NCBI GenBank assembly: GCA_945898055.1
Contig: CAMDGV010000031.1
Span: forward strand, 1 to 51,455
Source of the DNA: Akkermansia muciniphila
GTDB taxonomy: Bacteria; Verrucomicrobiota; Verrucomicrobiia; Limisphaerales; UBA9464
Reading direction: 5' to 3'
DNA: 51,455 nt
The position numbers were made by a program, and so were the translations under genes. The notes below the pieces were generated by a model. That model had not been told where the DNA came from. It ran no database searches and saw nothing but the letters and a program-made list of their open reading frames with translations. The number at the start of each line of letters is the position of its first letter. The first letter of the stretch is position 1. Below are positions 186 to 16,664 of this stretch, one piece after another.

Positions 186-1592
186 ATGGTTCCGTTCGTG
201 GAACGAAATTACAATGTGGTTGAACTCGGACCTCGCGGCACCGGAAAGAGCCACTTGTTTCAACAAGTCTCCCCGTACGCCCATTTGGTGTCGGGCGGTA
301 AGTCCTCCGTTGCCCGAATGTTCGTGAACAACACAAGCGGCCAGAGAGGCCTTGTTTGCCAGTACGACGTGGTCTGCTTCGACGAAGTCTCCGGCATTTC
401 CTTCGACTCAAATGATGGTGTGAACATCATGAAGGGCTATATGGAGTCTGGCGAGTTCAGCCGCGGCAAAGAGAGCATTCGCGCCGAGGGTGGCATCGTG
501 CTCGTCGGCAACTTCGACGTAGACGTCCAGCATCAGCAACGTGTGGGGCACCTGTTCGGACCACTCCCTCCAGAAATGCGCGGGGACACCGCTTTCATGG
601 ACCGTATCCACGCCTATATCCCGGGCTGGGACATCCCTAAGATTAGCAAGGCCGAGCTGACCAACCACTTCGGACTCGTCAGCGATTTCCTCTCCGAATG
701 CTGGAACCAAGTCCGCCGCCAAAGTCGGCAAAGTATCCTCACCGGACGTGTCCACCTGGGAGGAGCTCTCAGCGGACGCGATACCACAGCTATTCAAAAG
801 ACCGTCAGCGGACTCATCAAACTGATGTCACCGAACCCGGAGACACCGGTTTCGAACGAACTCTTGGAATGGGCCGTTCGCCTCGCTCTCGAATGCCGTC
901 GCCGGGTGAAAGAACAGCAAAAGCGAATCGTCCCGGCAGAGTTTCGAAATACTCAGTTCAGCTACTCCATCGGCGACGAAGGTGTGGAGAAGTTTGTCGC
1001 CACTCCTGAGCTTTACAGCGAAGATAGCGTGGGGAGCGACCCGCTGCCACCGGGTCAGGTCTGGGTGATGTCACCTGGAGGTGGAGATGAAGGTTGCGGC
1101 CTCTATCGTGTTGACGTGACCGAGGGCCCCGGCAGTGGAGTCAAGATTCTCAACCAACCCACCCCGGCCCCTTTCAAGGAAAGCGTTCGGTGCGCCGAAC
1201 AAAACCTATTCGTGCGTGCGCAAAGCCTCGTGGGAGACCGAGACCCACGCCAACACGAGTTCTGCATCCAACTCCGAGCCTTCGACGCCGCGAAAAGCGG
1301 AAACTCTGTCGGAATCGGTATCCTCCTCGCGCTCTGCTCTTCCCTACTCCAGAAGAGTCTCAAAGGAGGAACCATTGTAGCGGGTGGCCTCAACCTCGGT
1401 GGTTCCATCGAATCGATTTACAACCCGATCTCTGTCGTCGAGGTCGCCGTCGAAAAAGGTGCAGCGAACATCCTCATGCCCATATCCAGTCGCCGGCAAC
1501 TCAATGACCTGCCCGACGACCTCGCAGCGAAGATAACCATCCACTACTACCTCGATGCGAAGGATGCCCTGCTGAAGGCGTTGGCGGCTTAG
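186..1592 (+). CDS. brxL: BREX Lon-like protein BrxL, N-terminally truncated
   Basis: BrxL is the AAA+ Lon-protease-like effector of type 1 BREX phage-defence systems. Visible are the Walker A motif GPRGTGKS (residues 15-22), Walker B VVCFDE (62-67), and a C-terminal Lon-type domain from about residue 330, with KSGNSVGIG near 370 and VEKGAANILMP further on, where the Ser/Lys dyad of such domains would lie. Family members are usually about 650-700 residues; this one has 468, so roughly 200 N-terminal residues are missing. In-frame codons upstream of the ATG still read like BrxL (DLAILRMVPFVERNYN) back to a TGA at 138-140, so Met1 is probably an internal residue and the gene is 5'-truncated or disrupted. 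No other BREX gene is in the window; any would lie to the left. A DUF4268 gene follows after 16 bp. Family assignment is firm; activity is doubtful. Confidence 0.85.
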   Translation: MVPFVERNYNVVELGPRGTGKSHLFQQVSPYAHLVSGGKSSVARMFVNNTSGQRGLVCQYDVVCFDEVSGISFDSNDGVNIMKGYMESGEFSRGKESIRAEGGIVLVGNFDVDVQHQQRVGHLFGPLPPEMRGDTAFMDRIHAYIPGWDIPKISKAELTNHFGLVSDFLSECWNQVRRQSRQSILTGRVHLGGALSGRDTTAIQKTVSGLIKLMSPNPETPVSNELLEWAVRLALECRRRVKEQQKRIVPAEFRNTQFSYSIGDEGVEKFVATPELYSEDSVGSDPLPPGQVWVMSPGGGDEGCGLYRVDVTEGPGSGVKILNQPTPAPFKESVRCAEQNLFVRAQSLVGDRDPRQHEFCIQLRAFDAAKSGNSVGIGILLALCSSLLQKSLKGGTIVAGGLNLGGSIESIYNPISVVEVAVEKGAANILMPISSRRQLNDLPDDLAAKITIHYYLDAKDALLKALAA

Positions 1593-1608: not shown

Positions 1609-2568
1609 ATGCCCTCCCCTCTCGGCTCCCTCGAACCCGTTGACCTCCGGACCATCTGGCCCGACGAGGCCCGCGACTTCACCCCTTGGTTAGCCCAAGA
1701 AGAAAATCTTCGCCGCCTGTCTGACGCCCTGAACCTGGAGTTGGAACTCGACCGGGTGGAGGTGGCGGTGGGCCCCTATTCTGCCGACATCGTTGCCACA
1801 GACGCCTCCTCCAACAGCAAGGTGGTCATCGAGAACCAACTCGAAAAGACCAACCACGACCACCTCGGGAAGGTCCTCACCTACGCCTCCGGGCTCGAAG
1901 CACGAATCCTCATCTGGATCGCCAAGAAGTTCACCGAAGAGCACCGGCAAGCCTTTGACTATCTGAACGAATGCACTGCTGGGCGTCTTCGCCTTTACGG
2001 CGTCGAAGTGGAGGTGCTTCGCATCGGGGATTCGCTCCCGGCACCTCACTTCCGCCTCGTTTTTACACCGAACGACTCTGTCGCTGCGGCGCACAACGCG
2101 ACCGCCGGAGTGTCGGACACCAAGTCGCTCTATCTGGATTTTTGGACGGGATTCCGGGACTTCTGCCGCACGGATGGAGAGACCTTCAGCCTTCAAACTC
2201 CAAGGCCTCAACACTGGTATACCGTCAGCATCGGACGCAGTGGTTTCTCCATCAGCCTGACCACCAGCACGCTGCACAACCGCATCGGCTGCGAACTCTA
2301 CCTGCGAGGACCGACGGCCAAGCAGTCGTTCAAGCGGCTTAAAGATGGCCAAGGTGAAATCGAAAAAGCTCGAGGCTCAATAGATTGGCAGGAGCCCCCA
2401 GAAAAACAGGACTGCCGGATTGTCGATTACCTGAAGGATTTCGACCCTAGTAACCGTTCAGGATGGGAACAGGGATTTCGCTGGCTGAAGAAACGCACTG
2501 AAGAATTCAGAAGCGTATTCGGGCCCCGAATCCGAGCGATTTCGGGAGTGGATGAAGCCGATTCATAG
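1609..2568 (+). CDS. DUF4268 / PD-(D/E)XK nuclease-like protein
   Basis: This 319-residue protein has the two parts typical of DUF4268 proteins. The N-terminal half is a restriction-endonuclease-like fold with Asp60 (SADIVATD), then E75-N76-Q77 in VVIENQLEKTNHDHLGKVL; the D...ExQ pattern matches a PD-(D/E)XK-type active site. The C-terminal half (about 150-319) is the DUF4268 region. Such genes are common next to restriction-modification and BREX loci, which fits its place 16 bp after brxL. An AAAGGA ribosome-binding site stands about 7 nt before the ATG. A nuclease role in defence is inferred from the fold and neighbourhood; nothing here shows its target. Confidence 0.8.
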   Translation: MPSPLGSLEPVDLRTIWPDEARDFTPWLAQEENLRRLSDALNLELELDRVEVAVGPYSADIVATDASSNSKVVIENQLEKTNHDHLGKVLTYASGLEARILIWIAKKFTEEHRQAFDYLNECTAGRLRLYGVEVEVLRIGDSLPAPHFRLVFTPNDSVAAAHNATAGVSDTKSLYLDFWTGFRDFCRTDGETFSLQTPRPQHWYTVSIGRSGFSISLTTSTLHNRIGCELYLRGPTAKQSFKRLKDGQGEIEKARGSIDWQEPPEKQDCRIVDYLKDFDPSNRSGWEQGFRWLKKRTEEFRSVFGPRIRAISGVDEADS

Positions 2569-3209: not shown

Positions 3210-3233
3210 CCCGCGAAACCTTATTTCACTGAC

Positions 3234-3506
3234 CTACTTCTTGCCGAGACGCTTGGCCCTCATTCGGGCCGTCCATGACGCTGCCGCATCCATCGCTCCC
3301 GATTGCGCGTGCTCGTCCTGTTCCTCCTGCAATGACGCCAAATGATCGTCTAACCACTGACCGGTAGAAGGAGGAGGCTCAGGAGACGATGTTTGCGTCC
3401 GGACCAGTGGCCCCTTGGCCAATTGGCGCACCATCGAGCGGCGTGAGACTTCCGACCGAATAGTTGCCTGCCCCTCATCCCCTGAGTTGTCCTGATTGTT
3501 CTTCAT
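3234..3506 (-). CDS. small charged hypothetical protein
   Basis: A 90-residue hydrophilic protein, not recognised. It begins MKNNQDNSGDEG, has a Ser/Pro-rich middle and ends basic (MRAKRLGKK). The ATG at 3506 is chosen over the GTG at 3524 because a GGTGGAG sequence lies about 13 nt upstream of it. It is the last gene of the leftward block and starts 37 bp after the first of three tandem paralogues. It shares their size, charge and basic C-terminus, but I see no convincing alignment to them. Confidence 0.5.
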   Translation of the reverse strand: MKNNQDNSGDEGQATIRSEVSRRSMVRQLAKGPLVRTQTSSPEPPPSTGQWLDDHLASLQEEQDEHAQSGAMDAAASWTARMRAKRLGKK

Positions 3507-3542
3507 AGATTTTTGCTTCTCCACCGAGCATGAAGCGCTGCC

Positions 3543-3755
3543 CTATTTCTTCCTGGGACGGTAATCCCGCTGGCTGAACATCTCGGCCAGCAACTGGAAG
3601 TCCTCCGGACCTGGGGTCCACGGCTTGGCTGGCATCTGGCCCGCTAGGAACCTGTCGTCTTTGCTCGGCGATGGGGAGCCTGCGACCCAGTTCCGCAGCA
3701 CGGCTAGTACTTCCTGGTTCGATTGGTCGGGCTGTGGCGTATTCTTTAAGTCCAT
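3543..3755 (-). CDS. tandem small paralogue A
   Basis: A 70-residue unknown protein, one of three tandem paralogues downstream of the SNF2 helicase. Its order is MDLKNTPQPDQ, a variable stretch, LRNWV, SKDDRFLAGQM, then the block WTPGPEDFQLLAEM and the basic end SQRDYRPRKK. The ATG at 3755 is taken over a TTG six bases upstream. Copies A and B are almost identical except at about residues 13-31, and the 3' half is conserved in all three. Such strong conservation of the C-terminal ~35 residues with changes elsewhere suggests a translated protein under constraint, or recent gene conversion. No known domain is recognised. Confidence 0.65.
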   Translation of the reverse strand: MDLKNTPQPDQSNQEVLAVLRNWVAGSPSPSKDDRFLAGQMPAKPWTPGPEDFQLLAEMFSQRDYRPRKK

Positions 3756-3795
3756 AAACAATTGTGGAAACAGTTCCGTTTTTCTTGTGGCTGAC

Positions 3796-4008
3796 CTACT
3801 TCTTCCTGGGACGGTAATCCCGCTGGCTGAACATCTCGGCCAGCAACTGGAAGTCCTCCGGCCCTGGGGTCCACGGCTTGGCTTGCATCTGGCCCGCTAG
3901 GAACCTGTCGTCTTTGCTCTGCGATTGAGCGCCTCCTACCCAGTTCCTGAGCAAGGCTACTCGATCCAGGCTCGATTGGTCGGGCTGTGGCGTATTCTTC
4001 AAGTCCAT
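3796..4008 (-). CDS. tandem small paralogue B
   Basis: A 70-residue protein nearly identical to copy A. It differs mainly in the segment after PQPDQS (LDRVALLRNWVGGAQSQ against QEVLAVLRNWVAGSPSP). It ends with the same WTPGPEDFQLLAEM and SQRDYRPRKK. Its stop lies exactly 253 bp from that of copy A and 253 bp from that of copy C, so the array is a tandem duplication of one gene plus its leader. The short leader upstream of the start (containing ACAATTG and GTTTCC) is also repeated. Function unknown. Confidence 0.65.
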   Translation of the reverse strand: MDLKNTPQPDQSSLDRVALLRNWVGGAQSQSKDDRFLAGQMQAKPWTPGPEDFQLLAEMFSQRDYRPRKK

Positions 4009-4048
4009 AAACAATTGTGGAAACAGTTCCGTTTTTCTTGTTGTTGAC

Positions 4049-4264
4049 CTACCTCTTCCTTGGACGGTAATCCCGCTGACTCAACATCTCGGCCAGCAAC
4101 TGGAAGTCCTCCGGCCCCGGGGTCCATCCCTTCGACGGAACTTGGCCCATCAGATACCTGTCCTGAGTCGAGGACGGCTTTCCGGCGCCCCAGTTCATCT
4201 CCAAGCATAGTTCCGCCAATGTCCTTGGCTTTTGCGGTGGCGTATTCGTGTCTTCGGGTTTCAT
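4049..4264 (-). CDS. tandem small paralogue C, divergent N-terminus
   Basis: A 71-residue protein beginning MKPEDTNTPPQKPRTLAE. The N-terminal half is clearly diverged from copies A and B, but the motif order is the same: NWGAGKPS, DRYLMGQV, KGWTPGPEDFQLLAEM, SQRDYRPRKR. The start at 4264 gives a length like the sister copies; a longer reading frame upstream would run into the helicase gene. It begins 59 bp after the helicase stop and is probably in the same transcript. It is probably the oldest copy, with A and B produced by a later duplication. Confidence 0.65.
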   Translation of the reverse strand: MKPEDTNTPPQKPRTLAELCLEMNWGAGKPSSTQDRYLMGQVPSKGWTPGPEDFQLLAEMLSQRDYRPRKR

Positions 4265-4323
4265 TTTTATGCGGTTCAGTTTCTGTGGTCTAAATTTGAG
4301 AATGAGGGCGTTCCTGAAAGGTC

Positions 4324-6123
4324 TCACCCGAAGACTTCTTCGAATCCGATCGGGGTCGAGCCAGCTCGCAGAGCCCGTTTCAGGTTGGTAGCATGACGGC
4401 ACGCTCCCCGATACTCGAAGCCAGGACAGGAACAGGTGACGTCGGATTCCTCGTAGGTCAGTTCGTAGTGTTTTCCGCGGCCCGAAGAACTTTCGATCCG
4501 GAAGCGTCGAGACTTCGGTCGGGCCAGTACCCGGGCCAGTGCCAATAAGGTGTCCCGCGTGACATGGGTCGATAGCCGGCGCTCACCGCTAGTGTCTGCG
4601 GTGGCAGTTGCCTCATCGCGCCGGACATCCTCCAAGACCGCTTCCGCCCATTCCTCCGGGGTCAGTGGAACCTCTGCTTCAGCGAGTCGAGGGGATATCC
4701 GGGCCACCAAAGACTCCAACTCCATCAGAACGTCACGGGTAGCCAATGGGGACAACGCTCCGCCATCCACGACGGCTTCAATCAATGCAGTTTTCACCTG
4801 CAGGACGTTTCGAACAAACTCGTCGATGCTTCCACGGGCTGTGAGATAGTGGACGGTAACCGATGCCTGCTGACCGATGCGATAGGCCCGATCTTCTGCC
4901 TGCCAATGGTTGGTGGGCACCCAATCTAAGTCATTGAAAACCACGTGACGCGCCTGCGTGAGATTCAGACCAACTCCGCCAGCAATCAAATTGGCCAAGA
5001 ATATCCGCACGGTGGAATCTTGTTGAAAGCGGTCCACCAAGGCCTGGCGTTTGTCGGTAGGAGTGCTGCCCGTCAGTGTCACGGCTGCCTCACCAAAGTG
5101 GCGGGTCAAGGCAGCGATGGGTGCGTCGAAGCATGAAAAAACGATCACTTTCTCGCCCTGTGCCACAATTGATTCGGCAAGGTCTTGTGTGGACTGGATC
5201 TTGGCGCGGGCAATTTTTTCCCGAGCCTTGATGATCTTCGCCAACAGACGACTGCGACTCGCCTGTGGGCGGTCATCGGCCTTGCTGGCGACGAGCGTGG
5301 CAAACACTTCGCGAATCTCGGCGGCGGCAGTCTCGGGAGCTATTTCTACATCCACCCACGTGCGGGTTTTTGGCGGCAGGTCGAGCACGTCTTCCTTGCG
5401 CCGGCGCAGCATCGAACCGTGGAGTTGCAGGGTGAGTTCCTCGAGGTTGCTGGCACCGTCAGTGACCCAGCCGTAATCGTTTTTCTCGGCCGCGCAGTAA
5501 CGCTTGGCGAAACTCAGAAAACTGCGACCCAGCGGGTGGTGAATGAACTGGAGCAGAGGAAAGAGATCCCGGGGTCGATTGGTGAGTGGTGTACCGGTCA
5601 GGGCGTGAACGGCCGCCTCAGGCGCTATCTCAAGCACCAAGCGTCGCCCCAGCTTGCTTCGCTGACTTTCGTGATTCTTAAGAAGATGGGCCTCATCGAA
5701 CACGACACCTTTCCATTCCATCAGTTCCAACTCTTTGAAGCGTTTTCCAAGGATGTCGTAGTTTAGGATCACCCACCCGGTGAAGCCATCGGCAGTCCCC
5801 CCATCTTTACTTCCAGACAGGACAGCGCACTCGGCCTTTGGATCAACGTTTCGTATTTCCCTCACCCAGTTCCACTTCACGGAGGCAGGACAAAGGACCA
5901 AGTAAGGGCCTGTAGGTTCGGCGTGGCGCAGGGCTAGAATTGATTGCCGGGTTTTCCCTAAGCCCATGTCGTCGGCAAGGATGGCGCGACGGCGGGCCAA
6001 GAGAAATGCAATACCCTCGACTTGATGGGCAAACAGGCCTTTCGACAAGGTGAGTGCTTGATCAAAGGCGGCTTCCTCAACTTCCGAGGAAGGGGAGATA
6101 GTGGAGAAGTCAGAGGTGTTCAT
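4324..6123 (-). CDS. SNF2-family helicase with C-terminal SWIM zinc finger
   Basis: A 599-residue SNF2/SMARCAL1-like ATP-dependent DNA translocase. Visible are the Q-like FAHQVEGIAFL, Walker A DDMGLGKT (51-58), the DEAH box (142-145), TGTPLTNR, and the C-terminal helicase half with FLANLIAGGVGLNLT and motif VI QAEDRAYRIGQ. The C-terminus carries a SWIM zinc finger, CSCPGFEYRGACRH (564-577, CxCx8CxH), expected to bind DNA or a protein partner. The ATG at 6123 is chosen because the upstream in-frame extension is Pro/Arg-rich and does not resemble the family. In many bacterial SNF2 proteins SWIM is N-terminal, so the C-terminal placement is worth noting. It sits between an unknown 350-residue gene and the triplicated small genes, all leftward. 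A role in DNA repair, defence or chromatin remodelling is inference. Confidence 0.88.
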   Translation of the reverse strand: MNTSDFSTISPSSEVEEAAFDQALTLSKGLFAHQVEGIAFLLARRRAILADDMGLGKTRQSILALRHAEPTGPYLVLCPASVKWNWVREIRNVDPKAECAVLSGSKDGGTADGFTGWVILNYDILGKRFKELELMEWKGVVFDEAHLLKNHESQRSKLGRRLVLEIAPEAAVHALTGTPLTNRPRDLFPLLQFIHHPLGRSFLSFAKRYCAAEKNDYGWVTDGASNLEELTLQLHGSMLRRRKEDVLDLPPKTRTWVDVEIAPETAAAEIREVFATLVASKADDRPQASRSRLLAKIIKAREKIARAKIQSTQDLAESIVAQGEKVIVFSCFDAPIAALTRHFGEAAVTLTGSTPTDKRQALVDRFQQDSTVRIFLANLIAGGVGLNLTQARHVVFNDLDWVPTNHWQAEDRAYRIGQQASVTVHYLTARGSIDEFVRNVLQVKTALIEAVVDGGALSPLATRDVLMELESLVARISPRLAEAEVPLTPEEWAEAVLEDVRRDEATATADTSGERRLSTHVTRDTLLALARVLARPKSRRFRIESSSGRGKHYELTYEESDVTCSCPGFEYRGACRHATNLKRALRAGSTPIGFEEVFG

Positions 6124-6299
6124 ACTGATGGTTTTGAGGATACCGCAGGGGGTCAGACATCTGCTGGGGTAGGGAGGGCGGTGGCTAGGGAAAACCGGAG
6201 GTGACGCGTGTTCCAAAGCCCTGGTGTGCCGATGCATCACCGAGGTGCGTCCAGTGACATTGATTCATGTTGATGCCGTTTTTATGGATATCTACCCGG

Positions 6300-7352
6300 C
6301 TACTTGGGTGTTGTTTCAATAAATCCCCGCCACCAGAGGAAGTCGTAGGCGTGACGGAGGGCCACGTTTTCTGCACCGGGATCGTTCGCTCCGAACAGGC
6401 CAGGATGGGTCCGGAAGATCCACAGACGAAGGGTCTCCAGGAGAGTGCCTTCCGATGCTGCGTCCGATGTCGGGCCGGAGTTTGCCTCATAGAACGAGCG
6501 GAGATGCCCCATCTGATCCTGTCCGATTTCGGTCAATAGGGCGTTTACCACGGGCGACGACGACTCGCCGTGGCTACGACCCTGTATGACGGCATCGAGA
6601 AGGAACGATCGCAGTGTTCCCTGCGTGCTCCGCATGTGACCGAGGCTGACGCCAATGGCTGCTGACAGTACTTCGCCCTCGGCGGGGCGTCCGTAGGTGC
6701 TGCGGATGAAGGCCTGCCATGGATTCATGTCCCGGCGCAACCTCGTGGCCAAAAGAGCCTGGCTAGCGAAGCGTTGATCAAACCGGGCAGCATCGAGTTC
6801 CGCGGCCAGCATCCCGCACACCAAGGGGTGGGTTTGCGCCGCGCCGTGCCCCATCGATAATCCAAGGCGCCACAGCGACGTAGGCATCTCCATGGACTCA
6901 TGCGTCAGCCACTGACCGACCCAGTTCCGGAGACGACTCAATGGAGCGGGGCCTGCAACGGTATCCAAACTTGCCGCCACGGCAGCTCCCCGGGTCACCA
7001 GAGTGTCCGGGACAGGGTCGAGCAAAGCGTCGGGGAGAGGTAGCCCTTGTAGGGCCATCTCCGCGCCCTGAGCAAATCCTAGCGCGAAGTAGCGCGGTGC
7101 TTCCGTAGGCCGATCGGTGAGCCCAAGGAAAGTCTTCAGCCAAGCCAACACCTCATCGAGCGTCGGACACGGATCCGGTTGGCGGTCCCGGAGCCAGGCC
7201 CAGTAGGCCGCTGCCTCAACCGGCCGGGTCCAGAGGCCACCGGGAGCCAGTTCGAACCCAAGCTGCGCCTCTGCGGCCCGCTCCTCGGGGCTCTTCTTGG
7301 GTAGGTCTACCGATGGGCAGAAGCGGAGACCGGAGTACAGTTGCTCAGACAT
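6300..7352 (-). CDS. hypothetical protein upstream of SNF2 helicase
   Basis: An unrecognised 350-residue soluble protein. It is rich in Ala, Leu and Trp, with many amphipathic helices predicted by eye and no signal peptide, membrane helix or catalytic signature I can name. It contains LSRLRNWVGQWL near residue 140, which resembles the LRNWV of the downstream small proteins; the match is short and may be chance. It is the first gene of the leftward block, 177 bp upstream of the helicase start. The initiator ATG at 7352 follows a separate short intergenic region after the surface-protein gene, so a promoter is expected around 7353-7400. Confidence 0.6.
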   Translation of the reverse strand: MSEQLYSGLRFCPSVDLPKKSPEERAAEAQLGFELAPGGLWTRPVEAAAYWAWLRDRQPDPCPTLDEVLAWLKTFLGLTDRPTEAPRYFALGFAQGAEMALQGLPLPDALLDPVPDTLVTRGAAVAASLDTVAGPAPLSRLRNWVGQWLTHESMEMPTSLWRLGLSMGHGAAQTHPLVCGMLAAELDAARFDQRFASQALLATRLRRDMNPWQAFIRSTYGRPAEGEVLSAAIGVSLGHMRSTQGTLRSFLLDAVIQGRSHGESSSPVVNALLTEIGQDQMGHLRSFYEANSGPTSDAASEGTLLETLRLWIFRTHPGLFGANDPGAENVALRHAYDFLWWRGFIETTPK

Positions 7353-7400
7353 GGGAGATTCCTAACTTTACCCGCAATTATTCTTCGCCGTCAGCACCGA

Positions 7401-8759
7401 TCAAAGCGCCAGTCGGTAGAAGCCGTTTCCGGCTCCTGGCAGCGCCTGGTAGCCGCTCACAGCGCCAGGAACCACATTGAAAGGCCCGGGCAGCGCCGGT
7501 GACCACGTTAACCGGGCAGCGCCTGTCCAGGTGAAGGTCAGGCGTCCGTTCGTTTCCAGCTTCAGGTTCAGCTTGGGGACCGTTGCCGGATTGACCGTGA
7601 GGACCGCTGGGAAGCTCAGAACTTCGCCGGCGTTGTTCCGGACTCCGGCCGTGTAGGCACCCGCATCGGTCAGCGCCATGGCCGGAAGCGTGTAGGCGGA
7701 GGCATTGGCCCCGGCGATAGGAATGCCATTGAGGTACCACTGATAGCTCAAGGGTCCGGGTCCCGATGCAGTAATGGAGAAGGTCACTGACTGGCCAACG
7801 GTTCGAGTCGCTCCATCGGGTCGGGTCACTATGACAGGTGGCGATCCAGAAGGGGTTGAATCCGACAGGTTTGGGATACCATCACCGTCGTTGTCGGCAG
7901 GATCCGTCAACTGCAGGGTCCACCGCCGGAAGTCGTGGTAGCCGGTGCTCAGGTTGCCATCGACGAACTCGATGATGCTTCGGTAGGTCTTGCCGACCCG
8001 TGTAAAGGTGACCGGTGTCGCGGTCAGTCGGTTCCCCGAATCCAACTGCAGGAGAATGTTGGACATCGTCACGCTGTCATCCGAGTTCACCTGATAGGTG
8101 CCGGTGAAGTTTCCCGGTGTGAAAACCGATGAGCTCGCTCGGAGTTGGATAGTGCGCTGATTTGCGTTGTAGGTTCCTGCCACATCCATGAGCGGTAGGA
8201 GCCAGGATCCGGTGAAGATTTCCCCGGTCGTGAATCGGGTCACTGAGCTGCCGCTGGTTTGGCCTGCACCTCGGTTCAGAGTAATGGTCCCGGCCGCAGA
8301 ACCGCCGGTGACCCATGAGACGGTGACCAGACTGGCAGAGACATTCGCTGTGAGGCTTCTCTCGGCGAAGTTCGGGATACCGTTCGCATCGGAATCCGGC
8401 AAAAGGCTGGAGCCTCCGATTCCGACCATTCCGAGGTCGGCCAACTGATTGCCTTGATACATCGCCCAGAAGGACTGGTAGAGGTTGATGTTGCCCGGGT
8501 AGTACTCAACTTCCCCATTGAGCGGCAATTGTGGGTTCCCCCCCGCAGTCGAAGAAGGGGTGGTAAACCCTACAGTCAGATTATTCGGCCCAGTGCCGTT
8601 GTTGATGACGATCGATTGGCACTGAAACGTGCCGCTGATGCTCTGCGCCATTGTTGGCAAGAGCAATGAGGTGGCGGCGACCTTTCCGAGGGTCTGGAGC
8701 CAGTTCAGTTGGCGACGTGTCGAGACGATAGTCGCAAGAAACCGGTCAAGGAGTTGCAT
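7401..8759 (-). CDS. secreted Ig-like surface protein
   Basis: A 452-residue exported protein. The start at 8759 gives a signal peptide (basic n-region, KVAATSLLLPTMAQS); the open frame upstream of it crosses the regulator gene and is not coding. A β-rich unknown domain comes first. A calcium-type motif follows (DPADNDGDGIPNLSD), then an Ig-like domain (PPVIVTRPDG to VLTVNP), with the usual Trp in SYQWYLNGIPI. The C-terminal module (about 400-452, LETNGRLTFTWTGAARL to NGFYRLAL) has the same plan as the end of the FGE protein at 29183-32545. The gene is divergent from an XRE regulator and has a palindromic operator 9 bp before its start, so it is probably a regulated surface or secreted protein. 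Ligand unknown. Confidence 0.8.
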   Translation of the reverse strand: MQLLDRFLATIVSTRRQLNWLQTLGKVAATSLLLPTMAQSISGTFQCQSIVINNGTGPNNLTVGFTTPSSTAGGNPQLPLNGEVEYYPGNINLYQSFWAMYQGNQLADLGMVGIGGSSLLPDSDANGIPNFAERSLTANVSASLVTVSWVTGGSAAGTITLNRGAGQTSGSSVTRFTTGEIFTGSWLLPLMDVAGTYNANQRTIQLRASSSVFTPGNFTGTYQVNSDDSVTMSNILLQLDSGNRLTATPVTFTRVGKTYRSIIEFVDGNLSTGYHDFRRWTLQLTDPADNDGDGIPNLSDSTPSGSPPVIVTRPDGATRTVGQSVTFSITASGPGPLSYQWYLNGIPIAGANASAYTLPAMALTDAGAYTAGVRNNAGEVLSFPAVLTVNPATVPKLNLKLETNGRLTFTWTGAARLTWSPALPGPFNVVPGAVSGYQALPGAGNGFYRLAL

Positions 8760-8768
8760 GGTGTAAAT

Positions 8769-8784
8769 GTTCTGAAATCGGAAC
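8769..8784. promoter_or_regulatory. palindromic operator O1
   Basis: GTTCTGAAATCGGAAC, an imperfect 16-bp palindrome ending 9 bp from the start of the surface-protein gene. It matches O2 (8815-8830) read in the opposite orientation. Consensus GTTCYGAAATCRGAAC. Confidence 0.75.
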
Positions 8785-8814
8785 CACAATATCTTTGGCA
8801 GCAGGCAGAGTAAA

Positions 8815-8830
8815 GTTCTGATTTCGGAAC
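8815..8830. promoter_or_regulatory. palindromic operator O2
   Basis: GTTCTGATTTCGGAAC ends 2 bp before the ATG of the XRE regulator. Its centre is 46 bp from that of O1, about 4.4 helical turns. Binding of the regulator here would block its own transcription, so autorepression is expected (inference). Confidence 0.75.
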
Positions 8831-8832
8831 AA

Positions 8833-9066
8833 ATGGCAACTGAGCAAAACATGATAGGACCAACGCTGCGGTCTCTCCGGGAGGCCGAGGGGCTGACGCA
8901 GGCCGAATTGGCTGGGCGGCTCCAGATCGCTGGCTGGGACATCAGCCGCGAGACTCTGGCCAAGGTCGAATCCCGGGTTCGGTGCGTCACCGACCGGGAG
9001 TTGGTTCGCTTCGCCGAAGCTCTGGAGGTGAATCCGTCCGAGCTACTGAAGCCGACAAAATTCTGA
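8833..9066 (+). CDS. XRE-family transcriptional regulator
   Basis: A 77-residue single-domain helix-turn-helix protein of the Cro/C1 (XRE) family. It reads IGPTLRSLREAEGLTQAELAGRLQ for the first helices, then ISRETLAKVESRVRCV for the recognition region, and ends with the typical EALEVNPSELL. It is divergent from the surface-protein gene. The two 16-bp palindromes in the 73-bp gap are likely its binding sites. No ribosome-binding site fits between O2 and the ATG, so the message may be leaderless. No ligand domain is present. Confidence 0.88.
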   Translation: MATEQNMIGPTLRSLREAEGLTQAELAGRLQIAGWDISRETLAKVESRVRCVTDRELVRFAEALEVNPSELLKPTKF

Positions 9067-9304
9067 CCGGGTAGGGGGTGAAAAGGGTGGGCAGGAGGTA
9101 TGGTTTTGAGGCCTCCGCAATCGAGCGACTCGAGGTGACCAGGGGTTGCCCAAGAACTCCGCCGCCGCCCTGCTTCAGCTGATCTCTGCTTTGAGTTCAC
9201 CGAACTGAACTGAGGACGGGGCGGAAGCCCAAAAAGCGCCCGGGTCTTGGTCAAGGATCTACTCGCCGAGGAACACGCCCTCCTGGCCCACACGCGTCGA
9301 GAGT

Positions 9305-9373
9305 CACAGGTAGCCTGCCCCATAGTTTGCTCTCAGAGAGAAATAAATAGCCTGCCCCATAGTTTTGCCCTCT
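9305..9373 (-). repeat. two copies of the ATGGGGCAGGCTA dispersed motif
   Basis: On the minus strand AACTATGGGGCAGGCTA occurs twice (about 9311-9328 and 9350-9367), with TTTATTTCTCTC between them. The same string lies inside the ~180-bp repeats near 18120, 51100 and 51280. Here it follows the GHSDLK of the recombinase relic, so it replaced the end of that gene, including the expected catalytic Tyr. Confidence 0.8.
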
Positions 9374-9840
9374 CTTGAGGTCAGAGTGGCCACTGAGCTT
9401 CATTCGGAGTTCGGCTGGGATGTCCGCGGCCGCCAGGGCTGAGATGAACGTGTGGCGCAGGGAATGGAACCCTCGCTCATTCTGTTTGCGCCGGGTGCCC
9501 GAGGTGATCTTGCCGGCGGACACCCCGGCCTCCCTCATGATCGCAGCGAACTACAGAGAGAGCCCATGGGCTCCACCGGTCTCGGACCCAGCGAGTGGTG
9601 GTGTCAGGAAAGCCTCAACCTGATCGCCAGTGTTCAACGACGATTATTCTTCCCCCTGGGAATAATAATCGTCGTTGTACACGCCAGTCTGAGATGCGTG
9701 GGCTTCTAGGTGCTCCAGCAGGGCAGGGTGGATCGGAATCTGGATCCGAGACCCAGTCTTGAGTTGGTGGAGGCTCAGCGTGGCTTCGGCGAGGTCGATG
9801 TCTTCCCACTCAATCCGGCAGCAGTCGCGCAAAAACCCAT
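9374..9840 (-). pseudogene. tyrosine recombinase/integrase relic
   Basis: Fragments of one phage-integrase-type gene read in order on the minus strand. They are LRDCCRIEWEDIDL (start of the catalytic domain), LKTGSRIQIP, LEHLEAHASQTG, then DQVEAFLTPPLAG, FAAIMREAGVSAG, and FHSLRHTFISAL with GHSDLK (the HxxR and GHS catalytic boxes). It is broken four ways. The 5' end is lost beyond about 9840. A 57-bp in-frame insertion with a stop splits SQTG from DQVE. A TAG replaces a codon just before FAAIM. The C-terminus with the catalytic Tyr is replaced by a dispersed repeat at 9373. Removing the insertion restores ASQTGDQVEAF exactly. It was part of an integrated element that is now dead. Confidence 0.85.
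9632..9681. mobile_element. 50-bp palindromic insertion with 7-bp target duplication
   Basis: A near-perfect hairpin. CAACGACGATTATT (9635-9648) pairs with AATAATCGTCGTTG (9664-9677), and the inner stem continues after one mismatch to a 3-nt loop. CGCCAGT flanks it on both sides (9625-9631 and 9682-9688). Deleting the palindrome and one flank leaves an intact recombinase reading frame, so it is a true insertion. It carries no gene, so it would have to be moved in trans, as REP or palindromic MITE-type elements are. I see no second copy in the window. Confidence 0.8.
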
Positions 9841-9863
9841 CAGTGGACGTTCTGAACTGAGTC

Positions 9864-9891
9864 AAGAGTTCGATTCTTCCCGCTGGCACCA
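9864..9891 (+). other. 3' tRNA fragment, probable attachment-site relic
   Basis: From TTCGATT (T-loop) to CCA is exactly 23 nt, the spacing of a real tRNA end: T-loop, 3' T-stem, acceptor strand CGCTGGC, discriminator A, CCA. The 5' T-stem strand does not pair beyond three positions and no D-arm or anticodon arm lies upstream, so only the 3' end is present. Tyrosine recombinases often integrate at tRNA 3' ends and duplicate them, and a recombinase relic lies 24 bp away, so this is probably an att remnant. Confidence 0.65.
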
Positions 9892-10098
9892 ACCCGTTTT
9901 CATTGAGGGTTTAGAGGAAACCTGACCGTTGGCGCCGATACCGGTGGCAGCGTCGTGTGAATTCCAACTCCGACTGCCTATCCAGCCTGGCTACTGCGGA
10001 TCACGGCATCGATTGGTTCCCTGTTCCCAAGTGCCCGGGGGAGGGGGGAGGCTACCGCTGTCGAACTAGCAACGACGACCGATTCCGTTGGGAAAAAA

Positions 10099-11911: not shown

Positions 11912-14227
11912 TCAATGGATTCGCTTTGGTGATCGTAAGCGTTGCGCATTCGCAATAACGATCAGGTCGGAGAGGCCCATCGTCAGGGCGCAGAGCATTG
12001 GGTTGATCAAGCCGAGTGCCGCGAGCGGAATCGCGGCGGCATTGTAAAAGAAAGCCCAGAACAGATTTTGTCGCACGATTCGCAAGGTCTGGTTTGCTAA
12101 ATCGAGGGCCTCAAGGACCGGAAGCAACCCGGGTCGTAACAGGACAATGTCGGCCGCATCGCGTGCCATATCTGTCGCGCGCCCTACCGCAATTCCAAGG
12201 TCGGCCGCGGCGAGTGCCGGTGAATCATTTATTCCTTCTCCGACAAAGGCGACCCTATGTCCTTGCGCTTGAATCTTCTTTAGGAAATTCAGTTTGTCTT
12301 CTGGACTGCAGAGGGCATGGACCTTGTCCTCTGGAATTCCAACGGCCTTGGCGACCCACAGGCAAGCAGCGGCAGAGTCGCCGGAAAGAAGGTGAACGGA
12401 ACGTCCCGAGGTGATGAGACGTTGAATGAGGGTGCTGGCCTCAGGTCGGATGGAGTCGGCAATGGTGAGGAATCCGATCACCTCTGTTGTGTTGGCCAAG
12501 AGCACCACCGCTTCTCCTTGGGTAGCCGCTGCCTGGGTTTGGGCACGAGCCCCAGTCACATCGAGATTGAGAGATTCCATCCACTGAAGAGATCCAAGAA
12601 ACATCTGCTGCCGCAAGGGACCGGAGCCGATGAAAGCTTGGATCCCTAAACCTGGCAACTCGCGCCACTGGAAGGCAGGGTCAGGGGCAGGGGCAGCCTT
12701 GAGGTTGGCAATTGTTGCAGCTCGGAGGATGGCCCGGGAGAGGGGATGGTTGGAGGGAGCAGCTAGGGTGGCAGCGAGCGAGAGGAGCGTGTCGTCCGAA
12801 TGAGTAAACTCCGACAGGCGAAGGCAAAGAGAGAGAGTAGGTTCACCCGTGGTTAGAGTACCGGTTTTGTCGAAAGCCACTGCAGTAATTGATCCGGACT
12901 TTTCCAGTGCGATTGCATCACGGATAAGAATTCCACGGCGCGCAGCAGCGTTGATGCCAGCCATGAGCGCCACCGGGGTGGCTAGGCCCATGGCACACGG
13001 GCAAGCGACAATGAGCACCGCGCAGGTGGCGGTGAGGGCGGCAACCGCGGGAGATGCCATCGTATGCGCTGACCAGAGCCAGCCTGCGAGAATTGTTTGA
13101 ATCTGGATTGCGGTCTCGAAACGGGTCAGCCAATAGGTGGCAGTGAGAAGAGCGATGATTACGACGACCGGGACAAAGACCGAGCTAACCTGATCGGCGA
13201 GGCGTTGAACAGAGGCTCGACTGGATTGAGCACGGCGGACGGTAGCGGCGATATGGGCCAACGTTGTTGCTTCGCCGACGGCAGTGACTCGGGCAATAAG
13301 GTAGCCATCACGATTGATGGTCCCGGCAAACAAGCTTGCTCCCGTTGATTTAGAGATCGGAAGGGGTTCTCCGGTGAGCATCGATTCATCCAGAGTGGAA
13401 CGTCCCTCAGTGATGATAACATCGACGGGAACACGGTCGCCAGGGCGCAGAGCGATGCGGTCATCTAGGGCGAGAGACTGGACGGCAACCTCCTGTTCCG
13501 AATCATCGGCCTGAAGCTTTCGAGCTGATGAGGGAGAGAGAGACAAGAGTGTTTTTAAAGCATCGCCGGCGCGTTCACTCATCCGAGCTTCGAGCCAGTG
13601 CCCTAAGCTGATCAGAGTAAGGATGGTAACCGATTCAGTAAAAAAAAGGTGCAAATGAGGGGCGTTAATAAGAGCCCAAGTACTAAAAAGCCAAGCGGAG
13701 CCAGATCCCAAAGAGACCAAGGTATCCATTGTCGATTTACCGACCCGAAGCTGTCGCCAAGCACCGATGAAGAAACGTTTTCCTAAGCTGAATTGAATCA
13801 GGGAAGCGATGAGGAAAGCGATCCACCGAAAGATTTGATTCATGCCCAGTCCGAAGACCCATTCTGCGGCCAGAAGCAGGGCCGTGGCGGGAACGCCGAT
13901 TTGAAGAGAGCGTTGCCAAGAATGAAACCCAGCCGGGGACGAAGCCGCTTGATTGGATGAAACCAGTGACGCCTTGTAACCGGCGAGGCGAACGGCTTGG
14001 AGGAGGGACTCTGTTTTTCCGGGGATCGGCGAATTCCAGAGAACCCGTGCGGTTCGTGTCTGGAGATCTACTGTGGCGAGAAAGACGTGAGAAACAGAGC
14101 GGAGGGCGGTGGTGACACTTTGAGCGCAGTTGCCACAGTCCATACCTTCTACCTTCAAAAGGGTGATGGCACCGGCCGAGGGTGGAGGTGTCCGAGGCTT
14201 GCGAAACTCAATTCCTAGGTCGGCCAT
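11912..14227 (-). CDS. copA: copper-translocating P-type ATPase (CopA type)
   Basis: A 771-residue P1B-type ATPase exporting Cu(I) across the inner membrane. An N-terminal heavy-metal domain holds GMDCGNCAQS (CxxC, about residues 29-38). After membrane helices come the actuator motif LTGEPLPIS and the transmembrane metal site CPCAMGLATP (about 408-417). The phosphorylation site DKTGTLTTGEP (Asp about 452), the HPLSRA motif and the hinge GEGINDSPALAAADLG follow. CPC with a C-terminal YN...P helix fits the copper-type P1B-1 subgroup. GMDCGNC in place of the usual GMxCxxC is still a CxxC site. It is monocistronic, convergent with the tRNA and divergent from a ROK kinase. No CueR- or CsoR-type gene is adjacent. 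Confidence 0.92.
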   Translation of the reverse strand: MADLGIEFRKPRTPPPSAGAITLLKVEGMDCGNCAQSVTTALRSVSHVFLATVDLQTRTARVLWNSPIPGKTESLLQAVRLAGYKASLVSSNQAASSPAGFHSWQRSLQIGVPATALLLAAEWVFGLGMNQIFRWIAFLIASLIQFSLGKRFFIGAWRQLRVGKSTMDTLVSLGSGSAWLFSTWALINAPHLHLFFTESVTILTLISLGHWLEARMSERAGDALKTLLSLSPSSARKLQADDSEQEVAVQSLALDDRIALRPGDRVPVDVIITEGRSTLDESMLTGEPLPISKSTGASLFAGTINRDGYLIARVTAVGEATTLAHIAATVRRAQSSRASVQRLADQVSSVFVPVVVIIALLTATYWLTRFETAIQIQTILAGWLWSAHTMASPAVAALTATCAVLIVACPCAMGLATPVALMAGINAAARRGILIRDAIALEKSGSITAVAFDKTGTLTTGEPTLSLCLRLSEFTHSDDTLLSLAATLAAPSNHPLSRAILRAATIANLKAAPAPDPAFQWRELPGLGIQAFIGSGPLRQQMFLGSLQWMESLNLDVTGARAQTQAAATQGEAVVLLANTTEVIGFLTIADSIRPEASTLIQRLITSGRSVHLLSGDSAAACLWVAKAVGIPEDKVHALCSPEDKLNFLKKIQAQGHRVAFVGEGINDSPALAAADLGIAVGRATDMARDAADIVLLRPGLLPVLEALDLANQTLRIVRQNLFWAFFYNAAAIPLAALGLINPMLCALTMGLSDLIVIANAQRLRSPKRIH

Positions 14228-14447
14228 AGATTGAGCCTTGGGGTCGGGTGCGTTTAGGACAAGGGGAACTGTGGTTCCCTAGAAATAATATTAAGGAAAG
14301 GGTCGAGACTCATTTCAAGCGAGATCCTGTTGCGTGAACTGAGGTCGGTCGGTGAATCTTCGATCTGGAGTCGGTGAGCAGTTCGCGGTTCAATCTCTAA
14401 AACGAATAGAAAACAAGTTTTCGCTTAGCGAACAGTTCATCTTTTTT

Positions 14448-15383: not shown

Positions 15384-15689
15384 GCGGGAGATTCAAATGT
15401 CGACGGGGTTGGTTTCAAGCGGTTCGAAACAATGATCGAGGCCTTCAGAGGGGCATCGCCCGCAGTTTAAATGGAGAAAATCTCGAGGCACTGGCCGCTG
15501 ATCCCCAGTTGATCGAGGCGCTTTTTGGTTTCAATCAGCGAGGGTTGGGCACGCTATGGGGACGGACCTCGACACCGATCCCCATGACAAGGACAACACC
15601 GGCGAGCAGAATCTGTTGAAGGGCTGGTGAGGCACAGAGAGCCTGCCCCTTAGTTTACTCACTGCGCCATCTTCGGATCGTCCTTCGGT
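15384..15689. other. intergenic region, fragment of dispersed repeat
   Basis: 306 bp between the convergent ROK kinase and CarH-like genes. No gene is seen. GCCTGCCCCTTAGTTTACTC at about 15639-15658 is, on the minus strand, one base off the ATGGGGCAGGCT core of the dispersed repeat, so it is another partial copy. Confidence 0.5.
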
Positions 15690-16664
15690 TCACGTCGTCA
15701 CCGCCGGCCCACGCCGCATCTGGTCCAACACCTCGGCAAGCTGCGGAAGACCTGCGACTCGAATGGCACCGATCTCTGCCAGCACGGCCTCATACCCTGC
15801 CGAAGCCCGTCCACCCACTAGGATGTGGATCCCCGCGGGCAAAAGTCGACGCAACCGTCTCAGTTCCGTCGGAAGATCGGGGTCATCCTCCGGGTGGACG
15901 ATGGAAAGTGCTACCGCCCTCGCCCCTTGGGCGAGGGCGACCGAGACGATCTCTTCGGAAGGCAGACTTATTCCGGCATAGACGACCCGCCATCCACCGT
16001 GAGTCGCCGCCGCCGCCACTAGCACCGCACCCAACTCGTGCAATTGGCCACTGGGCGTCGTCGCCACCATTACTGGTGCCCTTGGGTGCAAGGCGACGGG
16101 ACGCGTCATCTGAGTCACAAAGGTCCGGATGCAGGACGACGCCACGTGCTCATGCGCCACCTTCAATGTTCCGGCTCGCCACGCCTCCCCGATCTGGGCA
16201 ACCAAGGGAGCGATGATCTCCCCGAGAAGTCGCAGTTGCCCCAAATCAACCGAGCCTCGATCCAAAATATCTTCCAGACGGGTGCTGTCCATGGCTTCGA
16301 CTGCCGAATACGCCTCCCCGACCAGGTCCACGACCGTTAAGCCACCGATCGTAGTCGGTCGCTTGGCGGTCGGCTCCGGCGCCGGCGCGGGAGCCGGAGC
16401 CGATAGTGCCGCATCCTCCGCGACCAAAACGTTCAATCGATCGGTCGGAAGCTGGGCGATATCGCCAATGCTATGACCGACATCCGTCGCCCGCTTCAAG
16501 GCCAGCAATCGCTCGATGTCTTCGGTGGTGTACAGTCGGCGGTTCCCCTCGTTCCGTTCCGGCTGGATCGTGGAGTAACGCTTTTCCCAAGCCCGGATCA
16601 AGTGCGGGCTGAGCCCGGTCTTGCGAGCCACCACCTTGATCGAATGTCTTAATTCATTTGCCAT
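15690..16664 (-). CDS. MerR-type regulator with B12-binding domain (CarH/LitR-like)
   Basis: A 324-residue regulator. A MerR helix-turn-helix lies at the N-terminus (about 1-75, KTGLSPHLIRAWEKRY, NRRLYTTEDI). A Pro/Ala linker (APAPAPAPEP) leads to a B12-binding helical domain and a Rossmann cobalamin domain. W162 and E172-H173 form the Wx9EH signature of adenosylcobalamin photoreceptors of the CarH family. H209 in SGQLHELG matches the lower cobalt ligand. CarH-type proteins repress as tetramers in the dark and release DNA when light breaks the Co-C bond. The ATG at 16664 starts directly before the HTH; a GTG at 16745 is an alternative. It is divergent from a sigma-70 factor, which suggests they work together. 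Light sensing is inferred from the residues present. Confidence 0.85.
   Translation of the reverse strand: MANELRHSIKVVARKTGLSPHLIRAWEKRYSTIQPERNEGNRRLYTTEDIERLLALKRATDVGHSIGDIAQLPTDRLNVLVAEDAALSAPAPAPAPEPTAKRPTTIGGLTVVDLVGEAYSAVEAMDSTRLEDILDRGSVDLGQLRLLGEIIAPLVAQIGEAWRAGTLKVAHEHVASSCIRTFVTQMTRPVALHPRAPVMVATTPSGQLHELGAVLVAAAATHGGWRVVYAGISLPSEEIVSVALAQGARAVALSIVHPEDDPDLPTELRRLRRLLPAGIHILVGGRASAGYEAVLAEIGAIRVAGLPQLAEVLDQMRRGPAVTT

Follow-up and report, generated by a model that had tools for sequence, protein, structure and literature searches.

A tandem array of small genes in an Akkermansia contig and its relation to a phage gene family overlapping the end of a polyvalent-protein gene

The S array and its phage-like flanks

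The window analysed here comprises positions 1 to 51,455 of contig CAMDGV010000031.1 from the Akkermansia muciniphila assembly GCA_945898055.1. Downstream of a gene for a SNF2 family ATPase with a C-terminal SWIM zinc finger (SNF2-SWIM), it carries three tandem open reading frames (ORFs) of 70-71 aa on the minus strand, with a 253-bp period, whose product we call S. Sequence comparison indicates that S very probably arose as a phage family whose gene overlaps the 3' end of P, a 180-aa domain of a giant phage ORF, and that modules made of the tail of P plus S were acquired by the bacterium.

The repeat copies beginning at 3537 and 3790 are 253 nt apart and 92% identical, and a 118-nt stretch of the repeat occurs a third time at 81% identity. 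Both spacings are 253, confirming the exact period given in a preliminary description of this DNA, which had been made from the letters alone. The two conserved elements named there, WTPGPEDFQLLAEM and the ending SQRDYRPRK, are invariant in copies A, B and C, and an alignment of the three bears out the variable N-terminal part. Palindromic inserts of the Rickettsia type do not fit as an account of the repeats, since each S copy has its own start and stop.

Relatives of S were sought in viral contigs by two routes. With S as the query, four scans confirmed 2, 3, 4 and 7 loci, on 11 contigs in total; with P or its carrier, the scans yielded 5, 9 and 15 contigs. Of the 15 viral contigs that have P, 14 also have S, and these 14 include all 11 that were found through S. 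In every one of the 14, S lies on the same strand as P, out of frame with it, and overlaps its 3' end. The P frame ends 4-106 nt before the end of S in ten contigs and passes through S in the other four, going on for 182-1172 nt beyond it. The S frame is open throughout the 14 contigs and the third frame contains 1-5 stops. S starts inside the P motif YGxEEY with an ATG codon in 12 of the 14; in the remaining two (L055 and L056) the aligned codon is ACG, with an ATG 18 nt upstream. Eight of the 14 contigs carry GAAGGNNATG in the S frame, within P codons, which plausibly serves as the ribosome site and start of S. This element is lacking in the clade-1 phages, which are nearest to the window.

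The strongest single result of the analysis is a scar of the phage P frame, 40 nt long, directly before each of copies B and C. In an ungapped comparison with the 40 nt upstream of S in the 14 phages, which are partly close relatives of each other, neither any of 5000 shuffles nor any of 14448 window 40-mers (array excluded) was as similar as the scars of B and C. The 40 nt upstream of copy A are unlike the phage sequence (mean 8.7 of 40 identical) and serve as an inner negative control. Read in the P frame, the scar gives VSHKKNGTVSTIVYGLKEY before copy C and VNNKKNGTVSTIVYGLEEY before copy B, where phage contigs L021 and L025 have VSYKNPGWVSTTVYGIEEY. Matches obtained by tblastn with P ORFs begin at 4048 and 3795 for B and C and run on from there, for example at 57% identity over 42 aa. 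The presence of P-frame scars before B and C argues that these two copies are phage-derived P-tail + S modules. As to direction, the one P contig without S (L064, with P at 30% identity) keeps GKENY at the end of P, and a P homologue at 30% identity on the Caballeronia grimmiae plasmid p2 (L041, 4791-5738) has GIENY at the corresponding place. P is therefore probably the older frame, which would set the direction of transfer as phage to chromosome.

Frame constraint was compared in four phages. Differences among clade-1 phages fall at S codon positions one, two and three in the numbers 14, 11 and 30 (L014/L021), 12, 8 and 27 (L014/L025), and 4, 5 and 22 (L021/L025). The ratio of nonsynonymous to synonymous differences (pN/pS) for S is 0.15-0.27 in the four of six pairs computed. 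For P it is 0.50-0.66 in the N-half in three pairs, the fourth having 0 synonymous and 3 other changes, and at least 1.5 in the C-half. Judged by half, the constraint on S extends over its whole length and that on P lies mainly in its first half. In overlapping frames simple pN/pS carries a bias, of which the codon-position counts are independent. In the four phages compared, the frame under constraint is S.

Distribution of S and the carriers of P

A comparison of 18 S sequences with Pfam gave no match at E 0.1, and one with PHROGs gave weak matches to two families, the best at E 0.005. The two window copies compared with NCBIfam and PADLOC have no match there. The preliminary description had called the locus undescribed, and of this it stands that the family is unnamed in these libraries. 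One of the two PHROG families, phrog_342 (internal virion protein), is matched weakly by all five S proteins of L035-L039 over residues 2-61, almost their full length (E 0.005-0.14), and by none of seven other S proteins scanned. These weak matches prompted the idea that the C-terminal motif of S is a copy of an N-terminal motif of the polyvalent proteins; it was rejected, as the S profile was not significant against reversed controls. A search of named phage and plasmid records with copy B as the only query gave no match, and the excerpted literature on polyvalent protein overlap, captured phage immunity, SWIM with Snf2, and small overlapping genes of Verrucomicrobia contains nothing on the S family.

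Cellular relatives are few. One of 18 matches to a pattern search of the genome collection is a relative, in the Verrucomicrobiales metagenome-assembled genome DUCD01000403, taken as G054:C403. The final S profile found 5 of 320 genomes of the order at E 0.01, namely the source genome, G054 (2.9e-22), G060 (3.4e-7) and two chance-like matches; an earlier search found 7 of 293, being the source genome, G054, G258 and four chance-like ones. The G258 sequence, missed by the final profile, is an S relic with its frame broken by a shift. At class level 2 of 286 genomes matched, the source genome and one chance hit. Weak S matches in L007, L009, L010, L011, L018, L068 and L069 proved to be chance on reading of the frames and were dropped from the counts of relatives.

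The S gene of G060 lies near the start of its contig, 1.6 kb from an AAA_25 gene with an integrase beyond. The AAA_25 product is 35-39% identical over ~600 aa to the AAA_25 proteins of two S phages, and we infer that this S belongs to a phage-like element with AAA_25 and integrase genes. Around the S of G054, a diverged relative in which the S frame alone is open, lie NERD and helicase ORFs and a Tn3 transposase. A conserved 67-81-aa ORF (HLWNN..WWCHFTLH..TKQRIR) was also observed near S in G060 and G258 (L067/L072 112-357; L017 734-937); it has no Pfam match and looks like a lone integrase N-terminal domain.

The ORFs that carry P are very large, with 2088 aa in L015, 1897 aa in L025, 1846 codons in L021 and at least 1542 codons in L038. 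DUF7178 is just over its cut-off in both the 1897- and the 2088-aa ORF, and ART-PolyVal is under its cut-off in one of them; L025 also has a ParB C-terminal domain (phrog_2579, 1.4e-33). In the related polyvalent ORF of L030 both DUF7178 and ART-PolyVal are over their cut-offs, but this ORF ends before P and has neither P nor S, and it was set aside. At 0.01 Pfam gives no match to the P stretch itself, and P was found neither among named phage records nor in the source genome of the window.

A structural model of P (predicted local distance difference test, pLDDT, 76.9; predicted template modelling score, pTM, 0.74) has as its two best matches in BFVD large proteins of uncultured Caudovirales phages, with template modelling (TM) scores by query of 0.66 and 0.60. 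Further down come N-myristoyltransferases of giant viruses and two proteins whose names call them polyvalent-associated. Against the PDB, P resembles common ferredoxin-like/PII (PII/ACT-like) folds at Z up to 7.5, a likeness that may be chance and identifies no function. The case for P as an acyltransferase is weak, as the Foldseek N-myristoyltransferase rows have TM ~0.35 and the second comparison gave the PII/ACT-like folds. The Caballeronia p2 homologue of P adjoins pentapeptide, DUF3540, DUF4150 and VgrG genes. Such surroundings are the usual setting of type VI effectors, and the VgrG and DUF4150 neighbours are a hint only toward a toxin partner.

State of the chromosomal copies and the neighbouring genes

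Among copies A, B and C, the C-half of S, counted from the W of WTPGPED, has 0, 1 and 6 variable sites by codon position and pN/pS of 0-0.17 (Fisher p 0.003 for A-C, 0.05 for A-B and 0.04 for B-C, the pairs not being independent). The variable sites of the N-half are flat over codon positions (18, 25 and 26), with pN/pS of 0.69-0.76. By these counts the C-halves look to be under purifying selection and the N-halves nearly relaxed; the diversifying selection on the small proteins that had been suggested earlier is not borne out by either value. Copies A and B differ at 60 of 132 sites in the N-half and 5 of 75 in the C-half (p ~1e-9), a contrast that could come from constraint on the C-half, from exchange through it, or from the two together.

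The array might instead be a decaying phage relic with no present function, its frames open by chance or through recent arrival, and this we regard as possible, if not the expected case, and no less likely than the immunity-like function proposed below. The flat N-half and the lack of a ribosome-site-like sequence in front of the copies would fit decay, as would the truncated brxL and the integrase-like fragments nearby. B and C differ at only 19 sites, and 19 neutral changes keep S open in 41% of simulations. Against decay stands the C-half constraint, although gene conversion of the C-half could mimic part of that signal. All three S frames are open, with a single 3-nt gap, between A and B/C, and in neutral simulations the A-B divergence keeps S open in 8% of cases.

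The preliminary description had placed the small-protein family at the SNF2-SWIM locus and named adaptors among its guesses; on this reading S would be a small adaptor or regulator of the ATPase in one operon. This we consider unlikely. The gap from the SNF2-SWIM stop to copy A is 59 nt and holds no terminator-like site. The ATPase (SNF2-rel_dom 1.9e-33, Helicase_C 2e-15, SWIM 20.9 bits against a cut-off of 19.6) was found at 1e-60 in the source genome only among 50 genomes of the family. At 1e-80 it was found among 313 genomes of the order, with at most four candidates scored per genome, in the source genome and in G054 (59% identity, residues 57-583). That this only other close relative falls in a genome with S would happen by chance in ~3 of 312 cases, although its rarity rests on that scoring of at most four candidates, and in G054 S and the SNF2-SWIM relative are on different contigs. 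A weak S-like stretch downstream of the G054 ATPase was sought post hoc; 23 of 3000 dinucleotide shuffles and, at protein level, 12 of 2000 are as good, and its score is reached by 5 of 818 real DNA windows, some overlapping S itself. As for whether S occurs only beside SNF2-SWIM genes, it does not: it overlaps P in the 14 viral contigs, and the best-scoring SNF2 proteins of G060 and of G258, which has the relic, are only 34-35% identical. Homologues without the helicase, which the preliminary description had named as refuting its proposal, largely turned up. S is therefore not a family of the SNF2-SWIM locus, and the co-occurrence in G054 is the one link that remains. According to the excerpted text of PMC5512222, SWIM-associated SNF2 ATPases are widespread in mobile systems, and 1469 phage records have matches to SNF2 motors at under 60% identity; the co-occurrence could therefore be due to a mobile neighbourhood that the two genes share.

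Among the papers searched, none joins SNF2, SWIM and anti-phage functions. The window protein shares its SNF2 motor with DrmD, ZorD and DpdE of DISARM, Zorya and Dpd, with which it aligns over much of residues 20-485. It differs from them in having a C-terminal SWIM finger instead, and it scores far below the NCBIfam equivalog cut-offs (105 bits against 1500 for ZorD). Assignment to any of the three was rejected on failure of the full-length equivalog match.

That S is no protein and that the conserved DNA matters, as an attachment site or RNA with incidental frames, is very improbable: an intrinsic-terminator-like sequence (read by eye) follows S in five contigs, DNA from mid-S to this terminator is nearly identical in that group, and in L036-L039 an opposite-strand integrase comes after S and the terminator-like sequence, but S has a codon-position-3 excess across phages and the diverged G054 relative keeps the S frame alone open.

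The remaining features are collected in Table 1. The 350-aa gene, the SNF2-SWIM gene, the three S genes and a 90-aa ORF are all present as first described; their grouping into one block does not hold for the 350-aa gene. The DNA from 6321 to 9099 is 84% identical to two genomes of the same genus, G010 (6321-9070) and G014 (6321-9099), so the 350-aa gene belongs to the chromosomal backbone and was rejected as a component of the SNF2-S block. Relatives of its protein occur in five of the 50 genomes of the family, counting the source genome, and two of them are 77% identical; neither of two viral pattern matches was confirmed as a relative. Backbone homology stops ~20 nt short of the stop of this gene, and the DNA to the left of ~6320 appears accessory: the minus strand bears the SNF2-SWIM gene, the S array and the 90-aa ORF, the plus strand the DUF4268/PDC-S11 gene and brxL.

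The 90-aa ORF has no relatives beyond the source genome among 195 genomes of the order. Its last codons, stop and next bases (3229-3251; GAAGTAGGTCAG) resemble the ends of S units, as if another gene had replaced an S unit at its 3' end. With its first ~210 profile positions missing and stops upstream, brxL, close to the end of the contig, appears to be a BREX relic cut short at its 5' side, and together with the adjoining DUF4268/PDC-S11 gene it makes a defence neighbourhood. The BREX relic reported earlier is thereby upheld; the integrase relics correspond to fragments that are present but both score under the Pfam cut-off. A Cro-type helix-turn-helix ORF (8833-9066) lies near these fragments at the right edge of the backbone segment. 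In the congener G010, contig L048 has a 175-bp direct repeat (91%; 14118-14292 and 15666-15839) in DNA that lies past the backbone segment and matches nothing in the window.

Table 1. Positions of the S array, the scars and the surrounding features in the window.
Feature	Position	Strand	Remarks
S copy A	4049-4264	-	71 aa, ATG start
S copy B	3796-4008	-	70 aa, from ATG
S copy C	3543-3755	-	70 aa, from ATG
40-nt scar of phage P frame, before copy B	4009-4048	-	mean 23.3/40 nt identical to 14 phage loci
40-nt scar of phage P frame, before copy C	3756-3795	-	mean 24.2/40 nt identical to 14 phage loci
SNF2 family ATPase with C-terminal SWIM zinc finger	4324-6123	-	599 aa; accessory
90-aa charged ORF	3234-3506	-	repeat family D3 at its end; one Pfam row far below cut-off
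Backbone: most of 350-aa gene (6300-7352) and Ig-domain protein gene	6321-9099	-	edge of accessory block
brxL, 5'-truncated	186-1592	+	first ~210 profile positions absent; stops in frame just upstream
DUF4268 gene	1609-2568	+	PADLOC candidate family PDC-S11, 1.9e-113; adjoins truncated brxL
Two integrase-like (tyrosine-recombinase-like) fragments	9251-9538, 9644-9892		25.8 and 22.6 bits, both under the 27.1-bit Pfam cut-off

Proposed role of S and relation to known systems

Taken as a whole, a phage origin combined with a role as a binder is the explanation that we favour, with some reserve. The origin is argued from homology, overlap, frame constraint, the scar and the constraint on the C-half. 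The bacterium very probably acquired P-tail + S modules from an S/P phage or an integrated element, and downstream of the accessory SNF2-SWIM gene the modules multiplied in tandem, probably by recombination through the conserved C-half. S itself may be a binder with two short helices, an N-terminal TxAExxxxNWG and a C-terminal WTPGPEDFxxLAEM, the rest of the chain being flexible. Within the phage, S would pair with, or act beside, the polyvalent protein whose gene it overlaps. We infer that the chromosomal copies would be expressed, bind and protect, in the manner of orphan immunity genes kept after loss of the partner, by blunting the injected polyvalent protein of related phages. This function is put forward tentatively, and the earlier guess that S is an immunity factor is a live one. 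A fuller scenario, in which phages hide a conserved antidote or partner gene in an alternative frame over the end of the injected polyvalent protein and the bacterium captured several copies, scar included, as anti-phage protection, is improbable on present evidence.

Several observations weigh against this explanation. P is internal rather than C-terminal in four phages, and its toxicity is hypothetical, the model showing likeness only to common folds (Z up to 7.5); for these two reasons the function is rated no higher. The window copies lack the ribosome-site-like sequence of the GAAGGNNATG type found in eight phages, as does clade 1. Their near-neutral N-halves fit decay, and the P frame, too, is open in all three, where neutral simulation at the A-B divergence leaves both frames open in 1% of cases. 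The model of S has two short helices at low confidence (pLDDT 67.7, pTM 0.27). No homologue of P was found in 387 Verrucomicrobiota genomes, in a search without a positive control, and a search of 59 relatives gave a single weak, chance-like match (L040 in G002, E 0.005). With P all but absent from these searches, the hosts of the S/P phages stay presumptive.

Arrays of immunity genes left by displaced effectors are known, according to the excerpted text of PMC5361080. The orphan immunity arrays of type VI secretion systems (T6SS) and rAID, as excerpted in PMC5361080 and PMC12247911, likewise consist of tandem paralogues without the partner gene, with diverged N-halves and a shared C-half, and with a scrap of the 3' end of the partner, which in the S array stands before B and C (not A) and amounts to ~13 codons plus the overlapped part. 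Unlike in those arrays, the presumed partner here is a phage polyvalent protein and no known toxin, and neutralisation is hypothetical. Phages and conjugative elements have polyvalent proteins (PMC5512222), and like these P sits in giant phage ORFs. What S adds is a further gene that overlaps in a different frame, and the excerpted text of that paper mentions no overlapping small gene or immunity protein. The viral overprinted genes in the excerpted text of PMC8227390 also encode an alternative-frame protein within an older gene, with the inner frame conserved. Unlike them, S also has chromosomal copies in a bacterium, to which a fossil of the older frame is still joined.

The S proteins form a new small-protein family, unnamed in the libraries searched and easily missed because S overlaps a giant phage gene. 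The array preserves, as a clear molecular fossil, the passage of an overlapping phage gene into a standalone gene of the host, and P offers a named, testable partner for S. If the copies do protect their host, the logic of orphan immunity would extend from rivalry between bacteria to the polyvalent proteins of phages.

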